A stretch of 24,256 bases of DNA from a virus. This document shows, piece after piece, positions 8,144 to 24,069 of this stretch; the first letter of the stretch is position 1, and every line of letters starts with the position of its first letter. The position numbers and the translations under genes were made by a program. Below the pieces are notes generated by a model, which was not told where the DNA came from, searched no databases, and saw nothing but the letters and a program-made list of their open reading frames with translations. The DNA is taken from positions 1-24,256 of IMG/VR virus record IMGVR_UViG_3300014914_000040; one strand, 5' to 3'.

Positions 8144-9043
8144 TTAAAGCTCCATTTCAAAAGATTTTTCTTGATCTATGCATAAATTAAATCTGATTAT
8201 ATCACTCACCAATGCTTCCAATAAAGTTGTTACTTGCTCCGTTGTTGTTGTTTGATCAAATACAGATATTATCAAATCTAATATATCGGCTATGATTACA
8301 ATATTTTCATCTGTTATAGTTACCTGATCATTGACATTTATAAATGATTTTAAGCTATTACTGATTGACTCGGTTATTAATACGGACTCACTTGCATTTA
8401 TTGATAAAAACGGTAAGCGTGTTGTTATGGCTTCGGCTATGGTAACGGAGTCATTTACGTTAATATTTAAAGCTGAAATTGCAACTATAACCGCATCGAT
8501 GAATTCTGTTACTGAAACCTGGTCATTGACGTTTATAAACGATCTCAGACTATTTGCAATGAGTTCGGTTATTGCAATATCTTCTGAAGTATTTATTGAT
8601 AAGAACGGTAAAAAAGCTGCAATATTTTCACTGATTGCAAACGTATCATTTACGTTAATATTTAAAGCTGAAATTGCAACTATAACCGCATCAATAAATT
8701 CTGTTAAAGATACTCCATCATTAACATTAATAAATGATCTCAGACTATTTGTAATCTGCTCATTAATTGCAATTTGATCATTTACGTTTATACTTAAATC
8801 AGATACACCCGTAAGAGCTGCATCAATAAATTCTATTATTGAAACCTGGTCATTGACATTTACAAAAGATTTAATCCGATTGATAGGGAAATCAACAACA
8901 CTTATACTCTCATTAACATTAATAAAAGATTTAACACGATTCGCAACATTCTCTGACACTGCTAATTGATCATTTACACTAACCACTAACGGTGTCAGTG
9001 GGTTTAATATAATCGTTATATTTTCTGTTATCGTTGCGCCCAT
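8144..9043 (-). CDS. Repeat protein of 20-23-residue INVND units, unknown function
   Basis: This 299-residue protein consists almost entirely of 11-12 copies of a 20-23-residue unit. The best consensus is INVND-QVSVTE-FI followed by a variable hydrophobic stretch (for example NSLRSF or IVAISAL). Three units form a 65-residue super-repeat that is itself nearly duplicated. The units are short, alternately polar and hydrophobic, and end in SF/AL/FL, which suggests a beta-solenoid or stacked beta-hairpins. There is no signal peptide or lipobox; the C-terminus (FNLCIDQEKSFEMEL) is not repetitive. A ribosome site (TAGGAT) precedes the ATG. Neighbours are a glycosyltransferase and a BppU-like protein, so a virion adhesin or decoration protein is plausible, but I do not recognise a named family. 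Confidence 0.7.
   Translation of the reverse strand: MGATITENITIILNPLTPLVVSVNDQLAVSENVANRVKSFINVNESISVVDFPINRIKSFVNVNDQVSIIEFIDAALTGVSDLSINVNDQIAINEQITNSLRSFINVNDGVSLTEFIDAVIVAISALNINVNDTFAISENIAAFLPFLSINTSEDIAITELIANSLRSFINVNDQVSVTEFIDAVIVAISALNINVNDSVTIAEAITTRLPFLSINASESVLITESISNSLKSFINVNDQVTITDENIVIIADILDLIISVFDQTTTTEQVTTLLEALVSDIIRFNLCIDQEKSFEMEL
8265..8850 (-). repeat. 195-bp super-repeat inside the INVND protein gene
   Basis: Blocks at 195-bp spacing are nearly identical. For example, the 20-mer ttaatatttaaagctgaaat starts at both 8460 and 8655, and identity continues into the following bases. A more diverged third copy lies just below 8460. The spacing equals 65 codons, so copy-number change would keep the frame. 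The near identity points to recent duplication or gene conversion. Limits are approximate. Confidence 0.8.
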
Positions 9044-20233: not shown

Positions 20234-20443
20234 TTATTTATCCACACAGGTAAACGCACCGGCCCGCATACCACCGCCACGTGCCTCTCGGTCTACTTCT
20301 TTTTTGTATTTATCCCGGCCCTTTTCTAAATCTGCCAAATCTGCAAGGGTAACAGACCTGTTATTGATTGTGTAACTTTGGGCGGACAAAACAGCGGTTA
20401 TTGCGTCTTCGTATAGTCCTAATAATGTTGTAGCTGTGCTCAT
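20234..20443 (-). CDS. Putative head-tail connector (gpW / DUF6148-like)
   Basis: This 69-residue protein sits between the large terminase and portal genes, where lambda has W. The pattern AITAVLSAQSYTINNRSVTL (about 14-33) followed by ADLADLEKGRDKYKKEVDRE is characteristic of small gpW/DUF6148-like proteins ('...aGqSytI..rs.trAdL.el...r..y...v'). It would complete the head by binding under the portal. The ATG overlaps the terminase stop by 4 nt (ATGA), with AAAGGGG 10 nt upstream, pointing to translational coupling. Confidence 0.75.
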   Translation of the reverse strand: MSTATTLLGLYEDAITAVLSAQSYTINNRSVTLADLADLEKGRDKYKKEVDREARGGGMRAGAFTCVDK

Positions 20444-22308
20444 TCGATCCGTTCCCCTTTCGTTAATTGCCTTTTTTTACGGCGTTTTTTAACTGCTTGG
20501 TACTCTACTTTTTCCTTATAACCTTGTAAGCTATCCAACATTTGGTAAATTGTCAAGGACGGATAAATCACAAAAGCAATTATATTTAAAACAGCTATGT
20601 TATATACCATTAAATCTAATTGCTCATTACGCTTTCTTGTTTTTATCCATTCGTATTTTTTAAACCCTTTTACAAATTTAACTTTACGTTTTTCCGCTGT
20701 TAATTGTTTAAAATATTCCTCGTCTAAACTCATAGGAAAATGAACGTAACCCGGCCCCGCTTCCTCGATCAACAGACGCGCAAATAATAAGTTTTTAATG
20801 GTGTCTGTACCGATCATGTATAAATTAACGCCGTTTTTTTGTACTGAAGGTTTACCGGATATAGGGGACCCAGGAGTAGATGATCCCTTAATGGCAAAAA
20901 CGCTTAATGAGTCGGAAGCTTTAACAAATGCGTATGTTTCGGCTGTATGGTGTCCCCCGGTATCTATTGCCGTTGCTACTATTCGCATTTGGCCTTTGGG
21001 GTGGCTGAAAGTTTTCCCTATGTATTCGCGGAGATTATCCCATACCGTTAGTTCCGCCGGGCTACCCATTAAATATTTGGTTTCTATTATGTCGCACTCT
21101 TCACCGGAACGCCACCCCACAATAGCACATTCTATTCTATCGTCTTGGACATCCGCCGCCATTGTTAGCATTACAATGTTAGGATTTAAGCCCGGTTGTA
21201 CTGGTTCCCGTCGATTAAATAGATAACTATATTCAAGGCTTGCCCCTTTACTTTCCCATGTTTCGGCCAATACGGTATTTGTCCATGTTTTTAATAATGG
21301 TTCATCTTTTAGTTTCTCAAATTTCAAAAACTCTAAAACTATATCCTCCCACGATAACCAACCTAATGGAGAGTATAAACCGTTAATGTGGAACCCTGGA
21401 CATTTCCCGTTTTCGGTATTCTCCGCAATCCATTTACCCCTTGTTAACATTTCGGTTTTATGTCTTTCCTCAATATGGCACCCGCACGAATCACAGATAT
21501 AAGTTACCTCTGATATTAGTTCATATTTTTCGTTTTTCTCAAATTTTATATTGGACCATTGTAGGTGTTGCATGTAATCACAATGCGGACATGGGAGGTT
21601 ATATTTCCTTTGATCTGATTCTAAATATTCGCGTTCTATTCTGGAATTTTCTTTTTCTGTTGGAGAGGATAAGATAAATATTTTACGGCGGCGTCCGAAT
21701 GTTGTTGTACGTTTTACCGCTAATGCTATAGGATCGCCTTCTCCTTCCAAATCCAACGGGTAAGAGTCCACTTCATCTAATGCCAAATTACGTATCGGTA
21801 ACATTCTGAGAGAACTTGCACTATTGGCCCCGGTTAAGACGGTAACGCCGCCCCGGTATTCTTTGCATAAAAGAGTGTTGCCCCCGTCTTTCTCTCTGGA
21901 TGGTGGTATGATTTCACGTAATACAGGGGAATCTTGTATCATTTCTTGGTAACGCTGCTTACTTAATTTTTTTGCCATCTCCACTGTAGGTTCTACGATC
22001 ATGAAAGGGCCGGGCGATAAATCTATGCTATGCCCATTCCAGTTTAATATTAATTGTGTTCCTGTGATTTGAGCAGGTTTCATAAAAACAACGAAATCGC
22101 AAGGGTGTGAAGGGCTAAGACAATCCATGATTTCTTTTGTGAATGGAACGCGTGATGTTTGATATCTACCAGGGGCAGCGGAACCTTTGGATGATAGGAT
22201 AACGTTTTCGTCCGCCCATTCCGAAATGTTTTGTTTGGGGTCGAGTCTTAAACCTTTTCCAAACGCATCATTATAAGCTGATTCTGCTTCCGTGACTCTT
22301 CTTACCAT
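20440..22308 (-). CDS. Terminase large subunit (GpA family)
   Basis: This 622-residue motor protein and endonuclease packages phage DNA into the prohead. The ATPase half carries a Walker A-like segment MKPAQITGTQ (76-85), Walker B LALDEVD (175-181, with D178 and E179) and the coupling motif SSPT (214-217). A zinc-ribbon-like insertion follows with CPHC (240-243) and CDSC (272-275), as in the lambda gpA family. The nuclease half starts with TMAADVQDDR (383-391, acidic Asp386) and includes AIDTGGHHT (447-455, Asp449), the RNase H-like nuclease signature. The gene overlaps the gpW-like gene by 4 nt at its end. Its ATG has no Shine-Dalgarno sequence and follows the putative methyltransferase remnant by 10 nt. 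Confidence 0.95.
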   Translation of the reverse strand: MVRRVTEAESAYNDAFGKGLRLDPKQNISEWADENVILSSKGSAAPGRYQTSRVPFTKEIMDCLSPSHPCDFVVFMKPAQITGTQLILNWNGHSIDLSPGPFMIVEPTVEMAKKLSKQRYQEMIQDSPVLREIIPPSREKDGGNTLLCKEYRGGVTVLTGANSASSLRMLPIRNLALDEVDSYPLDLEGEGDPIALAVKRTTTFGRRRKIFILSSPTEKENSRIEREYLESDQRKYNLPCPHCDYMQHLQWSNIKFEKNEKYELISEVTYICDSCGCHIEERHKTEMLTRGKWIAENTENGKCPGFHINGLYSPLGWLSWEDIVLEFLKFEKLKDEPLLKTWTNTVLAETWESKGASLEYSYLFNRREPVQPGLNPNIVMLTMAADVQDDRIECAIVGWRSGEECDIIETKYLMGSPAELTVWDNLREYIGKTFSHPKGQMRIVATAIDTGGHHTAETYAFVKASDSLSVFAIKGSSTPGSPISGKPSVQKNGVNLYMIGTDTIKNLLFARLLIEEAGPGYVHFPMSLDEEYFKQLTAEKRKVKFVKGFKKYEWIKTRKRNEQLDLMVYNIAVLNIIAFVIYPSLTIYQMLDSLQGYKEKVEYQAVKKRRKKRQLTKGERIE

Positions 22309-22317
22309 TTATATATA

Positions 22318-22338
22318 TTTAAAATAATTGTAATTGCT
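22318..22338 (-). repeat. 21-bp direct repeat flanking terS, copy 1
   Basis: These 21 bp recur exactly at 23394-23414, on both sides of the small-terminase gene. Next to each copy, on the transcript's 5' side, is a second shared block: TTTAACGCGCA. In copy 1 the blocks are a few bases apart; in copy 2 they are about 60 nt apart. Copy 1 codes for the end of the methyltransferase-like remnant, copy 2 for part of a 32-residue ORF. A related 13-mer (taattgcttgcag) is at 22331-22343 and 24217-24229. Confidence 0.8.
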
Positions 22339-22408: not shown

Positions 22409-22417
22409 CTAAATTCA

Positions 22418-22570
22418 TCATCTATCGTACATAAACGTAACAGTTCCCGTTATAGCAAGTGCCGATAACCAATAGCAAGTATCTGCATATGATTTATGCC
22501 ACAACCACCACCCTGCATTAACAAAATACAACCCCATGATAATATAATTAAATAGTTTCGGTTCAAACAT
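22418..22570 (-). CDS. Small membrane protein (50 aa) between terminase genes
   Basis: An intact ORF with ATG at 22568-22570 and TGA at 22418-22420 reads MFEPKLFNYIIMGLYFVNAG at the start. Two hydrophobic, Trp/Tyr-rich helices follow: about residues 6-24 and 31-48, separated by HKSYAD. The short length, double membrane span and MFxxxxFNYxxM-type start are typical of small phage membrane proteins of unknown function that sit near terminase genes. The start lies 1 nt after the small-terminase stop (coupled reading); a weak ribosome site (AGTAGAA) precedes it. Function is unknown: a holin-like or membrane-modifying role cannot be judged. Confidence 0.7.
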   Translation of the reverse strand: MFEPKLFNYIIMGLYFVNAGWWLWHKSYADTCYWLSALAITGTVTFMYDR

Positions 22571-22571
22571 A

Positions 22572-23186
22572 TTATTCTACTTCTGACGGGTTAAACTTCT
22601 TTTGCAAAACCGATGTTAATTCATTTTCTATTTCACGTTGGATATAGTCGCGCACCTTTACTTCATCCGTTTCAGCTGCTACAATAGCCGCCACGCGATC
22701 CGGTATATTTAACATTCTATCCCGTATTTCCCTTGCGGCACTAAACGCGGCATTTTCCACGTCTTCAGCTAAAACCATTTGGCCTGTTTTCAATGCAACG
22801 TCTAATTCAAGTAGTTTTATTTTTAATTTCTTTTCTTCTGTTCGCGCTTCCGTATAGGTGATATTATTTTGCTTTGTTTTGCGAATACTTGCGCCTTCAT
22901 TAGATATAGCATGTTTTTCAATCCGTCCACTCCCTAACGGCTCCACTAAAAATATATCTAATTTTCTGTCTGCCTCCTCCGGCCATATTTTATTATCCCA
23001 TAGGGGTATAACTCCAGACTGTACGTATTTACCTATGGTCCGCCCTGCTACTCCTTTGCGGATTGCATATTCAGCACGTGTGATTAATTCATCCGGATAG
23101 TGTTCATCTATTTCTTCTAATATTATGTTTATGCTTTTTTCTGGTATTTCGGCTTTCTTCTTGCGCTTCCTTTTTTTTGTTGCCAC
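22572..23186 (-). CDS. Terminase small subunit (Nu1-like)
   Basis: This 204-residue protein recognises the packaging site and recruits the large subunit. The start is GTG, supported by AAAAGGGG 6 nt upstream. A Lys/Arg-rich N-terminus (residues 2-12) leads to a winged-helix DNA-binding region at about 35-75: LITRAEYAIRKGVAGRTIGK, then SGVIPLWDNKIWPEEADRKL. A charged central helix (TYTEARTEEKKLKIKLLELD, about 109-128) probably mediates oligomerisation. The C-terminal portion with SAAREIRDRMLNIPDRVAAI (about 148-167) is typical of Nu1/DUF1441-like small terminases ('AAR..RD.mL.iPdR.Aa'). The next gene in the module (1 nt away) is a small membrane protein, not the large subunit, which is unusual. 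Confidence 0.88.
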   Translation of the reverse strand: MATKKRKRKKKAEIPEKSINIILEEIDEHYPDELITRAEYAIRKGVAGRTIGKYVQSGVIPLWDNKIWPEEADRKLDIFLVEPLGSGRIEKHAISNEGASIRKTKQNNITYTEARTEEKKLKIKLLELDVALKTGQMVLAEDVENAAFSAAREIRDRMLNIPDRVAAIVAAETDEVKVRDYIQREIENELTSVLQKKFNPSEVE

Positions 23187-23222
23187 TACCGGCCCCTTTT
23201 AAAATAATTCCTACTATAAATA

Positions 23223-23389
23223 AACGTACACACTGAGTATATTCGCCGTGTACGTTAAACGTTCGCCATTAGGTCTCCACCCTTTAGCTAATATACCCAG
23301 TGCTCATACATACCCACTTTCACTAAATCCTAATAAATCCCTTTCTCGGATTTAGCGGTTGCCCGCATTTGGTTGATAATGGGTATGTA
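23223..23389 (-). other. Structure-rich segment upstream of terS (candidate leader RNA or cos/pac)
   Basis: In transcript sense there are several stems. TACATACCCA (23389-23380) pairs perfectly with TGGGTATGTA (23316-23307). Enclosed in it are a GCGG-GCAA-CCGC hairpin with a GNRA loop (23366-23355) and CTAAATCC/GGATTTAG (23355-23348 with 23330-23323). Further on, CACTGGGTATATTAGC (23302-23287) pairs with GCGAATATACTCAGTG (23246-23231): 14 Watson-Crick pairs, one G-U and one A-G mismatch. A 9-bp repeat AACGTACAC/GTGTACGTT (23256-23248 with 23231-23223) competes with it or makes a pseudoknot. Lambda carries its cos site just before Nu1, so this may instead be a packaging site. Neither role is established. 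Confidence 0.5.
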
Positions 23390-23450
23390 ATATTTTAAAA
23401 TAATTGTAATTGCTGCTGGTGGATTGCCAATCTGTCATTGTACTATTCAA
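23352..23450 (-). CDS. Possible 32-residue ORF with TTG start
   Basis: A TTG at 23448-23450, 1 nt after the stop of the gpZ-like gene, is preceded by AAAAGGGG (8 nt away). This is the same 13-bp ribosome-site block (AAAAGGGGCCGGT) as that before the small terminase GTG. The ORF reads MNSTMTDWQSTSSNYNYFKI and ends LHTHYQPNAGNR. It contains repeat copy 2, and its 3' end overlaps the structured segment. It may be a genuine small gene or an accident of a duplicated ribosome site. No family recognised. Confidence 0.3.
   Translation of the reverse strand: MNSTMTDWQSTSSNYNYFKILHTHYQPNAGNR
23394..23414 (-). repeat. 21-bp direct repeat flanking terS, copy 2
   Basis: An exact match to 22318-22338. 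It lies in the 265-nt gap between the gpZ-like and small-terminase genes, inside the short ORF at 23352-23450 but read in a different frame from copy 1. The two copies could recombine and delete the 1.08 kb between them, including terS. Confidence 0.8.
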
Positions 23451-23451
23451 T

Positions 23452-24069
23452 TCACCGGCCCCTTTTCTCAAATTGCGCGTTAAACTGTTTATCTAATTCC
23501 TTTTGAAATTTTTTCTCTATGGTTTTGTTCATTACCTTTTTAGCACCTTTGCTCGTGTAAAGAGTTGCGATCTGTGGCCCCCATTCTACTTGCCTTTTTG
23601 CTGCTTTGTACGGTTCCCCTGATTTAGAAACACGTGTGATCAATCCCGCACGTCTACCCTTACCCTTAGACATTGCAACTTTTTGAGATCCCTTTCTCCA
23701 CATTGGCGCGATAAACCCGCCTTTTATTAATTCCGTCCTGGCCTTGACTTTGACTATCAACCCTTTATCTGTTTGTTTAGTACCCCACTCTGACAAATCC
23801 CGGCCTTTTCTCCTGATAAATATAGTCGCCACTCCAATGCTCCTGTGTGCGTTTGCTAATTTAAGCGATACAAGGCCACCGGGTTTACCAGTATCTTCTT
23901 TGGGTATATGATAAGTGGTTTCTAAATGTTCCCGTAATGCTTTGTTAACCTTTCGTGTGGTGAAATTAAGCGCGTTAGCTGTAGCTCTTTTAGTCACGTT
24001 CGGAAGGTCTGAAAACATCCGGTCTAAACTTCCTTTGTCGATTTCTAATTTGAATATTCCTTTTCCCAT
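23452..24069 (-). CDS. Putative minor tail protein Z-like (tail completion)
   Basis: This 205-residue basic protein has the pattern of the phage minor tail protein Z (GPZ) group, close in length to lambda Z (192 aa). It reads RATANALNFTTRKVNKALRE at about 28-47 (compare 'RAlNrTar.vrt.a'), followed by TYHIPKEDTGKPGG, a middle with KVKARTELIKGGFIAPMWRKG, then SKSGEPYKAAKRQVEWGPQI (about 158-177), the usual 'p....GPsi' before the end, and a Lys-rich helix. In lambda, Z lies after FII; here it is upstream of the small terminase. The ATG has no Shine-Dalgarno sequence and lies directly below a promoter-like sequence. The stop is followed by a possible small ORF. Confidence 0.6.
   Translation of the reverse strand: MGKGIFKLEIDKGSLDRMFSDLPNVTKRATANALNFTTRKVNKALREHLETTYHIPKEDTGKPGGLVSLKLANAHRSIGVATIFIRRKGRDLSEWGTKQTDKGLIVKVKARTELIKGGFIAPMWRKGSQKVAMSKGKGRRAGLITRVSKSGEPYKAAKRQVEWGPQIATLYTSKGAKKVMNKTIEKKFQKELDKQFNAQFEKRGR

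Follow-up and report, generated by a model that had tools for sequence, protein, structure and literature searches.

The gap between the neck-type gene and the small terminase subunit gene (terS) of this virus appears, from sequence comparison, to hold a real, lineage-specific insertion of 253 bp (23201..23453, minus strand) that is structured, non-coding and hairpin-rich. On balance, we lean towards a reading in which this segment is not a packaging site and would serve as a structured leader or spacer RNA for terS. The insertion shows non-coding DNA entering a tightly packed phage operon with neither neighbour harmed and, if the RNA is functional, it would represent an unlisted regulatory element adjoining a packaging gene.

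Gene order and the inserted segment

The window, that is, the whole stretch of DNA analyzed, is a 24,256-base virus record whose minus strand carries a module of lambda-type packaging and structural genes, in the order terL, terS, neck-type gene, followed by portal, protease, capsid, and tail genes. The terL gene (20440-22308, minus strand) encodes GpA ATPase and nuclease domains, terS (22572..23186, minus strand; phrog_57) has a GTG start, and a neck or tail-completion type protein (phrog_27) is encoded at 23452..24069 on the same strand. The 265-nt gap between the latter two genes (23187-23451), described in an earlier sequence-only reading, is real. TerS begins with a Lys-rich N-terminal extension (MATKKRKRKKKAEIPEKS, 23127-23186) that is missing from the related contigs L005 and L006, and the start of TerS in L016 is likewise Lys-rich and comparable to that of the window. 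A small open frame for a hydrophobic product of 50 aa (22417-22569) lies between terS and terL, where the two nearest relatives have a different small frame. Elsewhere in the window, the protein encoded at 11086-12957 matches the G8 domain (PF10162, E 8e-6).

Contigs of the same phage group, obtained from searches for relatives of terL, terS, and the neck gene, were compared across the neck-terS junction. On alignment, the 253-bp segment was absent from L005, L006, L007, L016, and L041, and the 265-nt window sequence was absent from every relative showing the junction. The gap between the two genes was 0 nt in L006 and L041, 4 nt in L016, and 10 nt in L005, and in L007 and L008 the junction was occupied by an unrelated HAD-like gene (L007:901-1199, L008:2823-3119), presumably a HAD-type phosphatase judging from its DVDDTL motif. 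The presence of this gene suggests that the junction tolerates acquisitions. In a tree of neck and TerS sequences the window grouped with L005 and L006 (support 100/100) and the other relatives fell outside, so the simplest history has the segment gained in the lineage of the window. As the window is a single metagenomic contig, an assembly error is possible.

An exact 13-bp direct repeat, AAAAGGGGCCGGT, resembling a target-site duplication, flanks the insert at both borders, and both flanking genes are intact. The left copy (23454..23466, minus strand) comprises the closing codons of the neck gene, retaining its final residues EKRGR, with the first two inserted bases completing the TGA stop. 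The right copy (23188..23200, minus strand) lies in the terS ribosome-binding region, retaining the ribosome-binding site (AAGGGG) and then the GTG start, such that the 13 duplicated bp provide the neck gene with its end codons and terS with its ribosome-binding site. The right copy is followed by AGTGGCAACAAAA, similar to the uninterrupted junction GGCCGTTAAGTGGCAAAAAAA of L041 (GGCCGTTAAGTGGCAAAAAAA compared with GGCCGGTAGTGGCAACAAAA), and, given this likeness, the ancestral terS start has probably survived there. Taken together, absence from the relatives and the flanking repeat indicate that about 253 bp were inserted recently. The repeat itself may have arisen by transposition or by another recombination event.

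The insert has features in common with two known kinds of acquired DNA. Like MITEs, it is short, non-coding, and hairpin-rich with a target-duplication-like direct repeat at its flanks; unlike MITEs, no terminal inverted repeats were found at its exact borders, the nearest feature being an A+T-rich inverted repeat in a subterminal position (83% over 18 nt), and no second copy or parent transposon was found in the window or the searched collections. As with moron-like cassettes, it is an extra segment between conserved genes, missing in relatives and leaving its neighbours intact, at a junction where L007 and L008 hold a different acquired gene. It differs from such cassettes in having no recognisable protein-coding gene or terminator, and in its flanking 13-bp direct repeat.

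Predicted folding of the insert

The inverted repeats that had been claimed for the gap were recovered as exact arms of 10, 8, and 9 bp plus one long stem; exact arms of 8 bp or longer numbered three, compared with 0.42 expected from 500 dinucleotide-preserving shuffles (p about 0.002). All of the following features are on the minus strand. Domain 1 (23307..23389) comprises a closing stem of 10 exact Watson-Crick pairs (23380-23389/23307-23316), the hairpin GCGG-GCAA-CCGC (23355-23366), and a stem of 8 exact Watson-Crick pairs (23348-23355/23323-23330). Domain 2 (23230..23303) is built on the long stem (23290-23303/23230-23243), for which the proposed G-U pairing was borne out, with two such pairs in the minus sense, and the proposed length of 16 bp was reduced to 14 continuous pairs. 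The 9-bp repeat does overlap this stem as described; its arms AACGTACAC/GTGTACGTT (23248-23256/23223-23231) would form an alternative that is mutually exclusive with the long stem, and constrained folding of domain 2 gave -29.7 kcal/mol for the long-stem form versus -22.0 for the 9-bp alternative. An A+T-rich outer stem (23391-23400/23197-23206) closes a three-way junction in the predicted fold.

The comparison with shuffled sequence that the sequence-only reading had proposed yielded whole-gap z values of -3.09 (minus strand) and -3.41 (plus strand). For 23207-23406, a stretch picked with the finding already known, z was about -4.5 (minus) and -4.7 (plus) against background means of -0.18 and -0.02 for 161 sampled 200-nt windows per strand. 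A coding window at 8557-8756 lay below 23207-23406 in the same coarse scan, making the stretch a clear outlier and not a unique one. That coding window belongs to the gene for a protein of degenerate tandem repeats at 8144-9043 (NSLRSFINVNDQVSVTEFIDAV... / ISALNINVND...), the DNA of which has an unusually stable fold (z -3.7 over 8557-8756). The gap upstream of terL had no structural excess (z 0.33). Computation shows the sense strand of the insert to have a two-domain, three-way-junction-like predicted fold with a stability greater than that of shuffled sequence.

The suggestion that the fold favours an RNA made from the minus strand held in part. Domain 2 agrees with it to a modest extent (-29.7 kcal/mol in the minus sense versus -19.5 in the plus sense) and domain 1 is nearly neutral. 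Over the whole insert there is almost no difference in folding between the two strands, and RNA function is consequently not separable from inverted repeats in the DNA.

Signals, searches, and possible roles

The most probable role for the insert is that of a leader or spacer separating terS expression from the neck gene. Under this proposal, a segment of about 253 bp would have entered the neck/terS junction, with both genes surviving by means of the 13-bp repeat copies. The insert would then be transcribed with the late operon or from a promoter-like site at 23403-23430, and the resulting structured RNA would serve as a leader or spacer that frees terS translation from the neck gene, the two genes being tightly linked in relatives.

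The promoter-like site, TTGGCA-16-TACAAT (23403..23430, minus strand), lies just upstream of the structured part and is weak, a 10/12 consensus match of a kind that is near background (11 found versus 6.4 expected). No intrinsic terminator was found for the insert. The -10-like hexamer of the site is covered by a 21-bp sequence, AGCAATTACAATTATTTTAAA (23394..23414, minus strand), an identical copy of which lies directly upstream of terL (22318..22338, minus strand); for its 20-bp core, 0.02 matches were expected in shuffled sequence at up to 3 mismatches. The 21-bp repeat could be a shared promoter, a recombination scar, or an assembly effect, 21 bp also being a common assembly k-mer length. 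Domain 2 encloses a mini-ORF, ATG GCG AAC GTT TAA (MANV*; 23255..23269, minus strand), preceded by a GGAG at 23275-23278. The mini-ORF is possibly due to chance, as the ribosome-binding-site-like GGAG-N5-ATG pair has a probability of 0.31 in shuffled sequence. The insert also includes a 28-codon open frame.

The insert may be a structured terS leader, a tentative assignment, or it may be an orphan RNA gene. In the latter case it would constitute a separate gene whose product, a small non-coding RNA from a new family, would run from the promoter-like site to an end near 23195, adopt the three-way-junction fold, and regulate in trans or in cis. We regard this as unlikely. The fold excess over 23207-23406, the stability of domain 2 in the sense strand (greater by about 10 kcal/mol), the promoter match directly upstream of the structured part, and the recurrence of the 21-bp sequence with its -10-like hexamer upstream of terL are all consistent with an RNA gene, but the plus-strand z is equally strong, an intrinsic terminator is missing, and neither a homologue nor an Rfam match was found. 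Rfam covariance models, including those for group I introns and phi29 pRNA, gave no match to the gap at gathering thresholds, and at E values up to 10 there were only two weak, unrelated matches at chance level, in agreement with the earlier description of the element as possibly undescribed. At the sensitivity of the tools used, no homologue was detected in 50,697 phages, 72,556 plasmids, or the IMG/VR and GTDB genomes, the last two being scanned with short exact motifs only, which diverged copies would escape; near copies of the window's own record were possibly left out of some searches. As no homologue was found, a new RNA family cannot be claimed.

Individual matches were short. DNA similarity searches of phages and plasmids returned chance-level pieces only; one of them, 22 bp shared with Vibrio phage PG07 (E 0.3), was dropped on inspection. 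Two exact-motif patterns had no match in IMG/VR, and three other exact motifs gave isolated matches, none of which reached into the insert. A match to a 52.8-kb IMG/VR contig covered 22 bp around the ribosome-binding site and ATG of a gene, and one to a hairpin in a Ruminococcaceae ribosomal-protein operon did not extend into the insert; all three were taken as chance. A short match in a related contig behind L009 was merely an A+T-rich motif preceding a start. An integron attC-like reading of GTTAAAC (23254-23260) was set aside, as spaced core boxes were missing and coding sequence contains this string as well. The terS scan of bacterial and archaeal genomes revealed no prophage relative, and literature searches found nothing on such an element. 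Two fragments in the gap had been likened to a group I intron core, a short resemblance that is statistically unsupported, with no Rfam match even at E 10 and no intact core; moreover, the gap differs from an intron in lying between genes and interrupting none.

It is similarly improbable that the segment is a decayed former coding cassette acquired at the junction, its inverted repeats being chance occurrences or leftovers of the cassette flanks. The acquired gene at the same junction in L007 and L008 would fit such an origin, as would the GGAG-N5-ATG, followed by four codons only, and the 28-codon frame within the insert. Against it, the frames of the insert that were searched had no protein-family match, alignment of the window gap with the L007 HAD gene gave no convincing similarity by eye, and the inverted repeats exceed the level expected by chance.

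More doubtful still is the idea of a small RNA cassette, mobile or gained by horizontal transfer, consisting of a promoter and a three-way-junction RNA of about 190 nt that would switch between the long-stem and 9-bp-stem forms, perhaps in dependence on translation of MANV*, and thereby set TerS expression or act in trans.

A contig end shared by five relatives

Five of the related contigs (L005, L006, L007, L016, and L041) begin at the same homologous base, GGTnnGG..C.GCGCACCTTTT, about 240-290 bp upstream of the neck gene. In L008, which belongs to a 47.8-kb contig, this sequence is internal (L008:1921). Where virion DNA has a cos end, independent contigs are expected to terminate at a single conserved base. 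The conserved contig end therefore resembles a physical (cos) end for the phage group, a placement that rests on contig ends, and it suggests the likely location of the packaging site in an uncultured group. According to the alignment, the window falls short of the conserved end by about 65-110 bp, and this end would be approximately 0.9 kb from the gap.

A cos or pac site with terminase-binding repeats in the gap itself, as in lambda where cos precedes Nu1, is very improbable and is rejected here: the gap does adjoin terS, contains repeated A+T-rich motifs, and belongs to a lambda-type (GpA/TerL) packaging module, but the physical end in relatives appears upstream of the neck gene, neither the end sequence nor the TAATTATTCC-type repeat from the end region occurs in the gap, which has no cos-side repeats, and L005 and L006 do not have the segment though their TerL proteins are 84-89% and their TerS proteins about 79% identical to those of the window. 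The sequence-only reading was upheld in its structural excess and not in its packaging-site or intron interpretations, and it had overlooked both the insertion and the 13-bp direct repeat at its borders. The motif AATTATTCC, located near the conserved contig end, recurs in several of these relatives.
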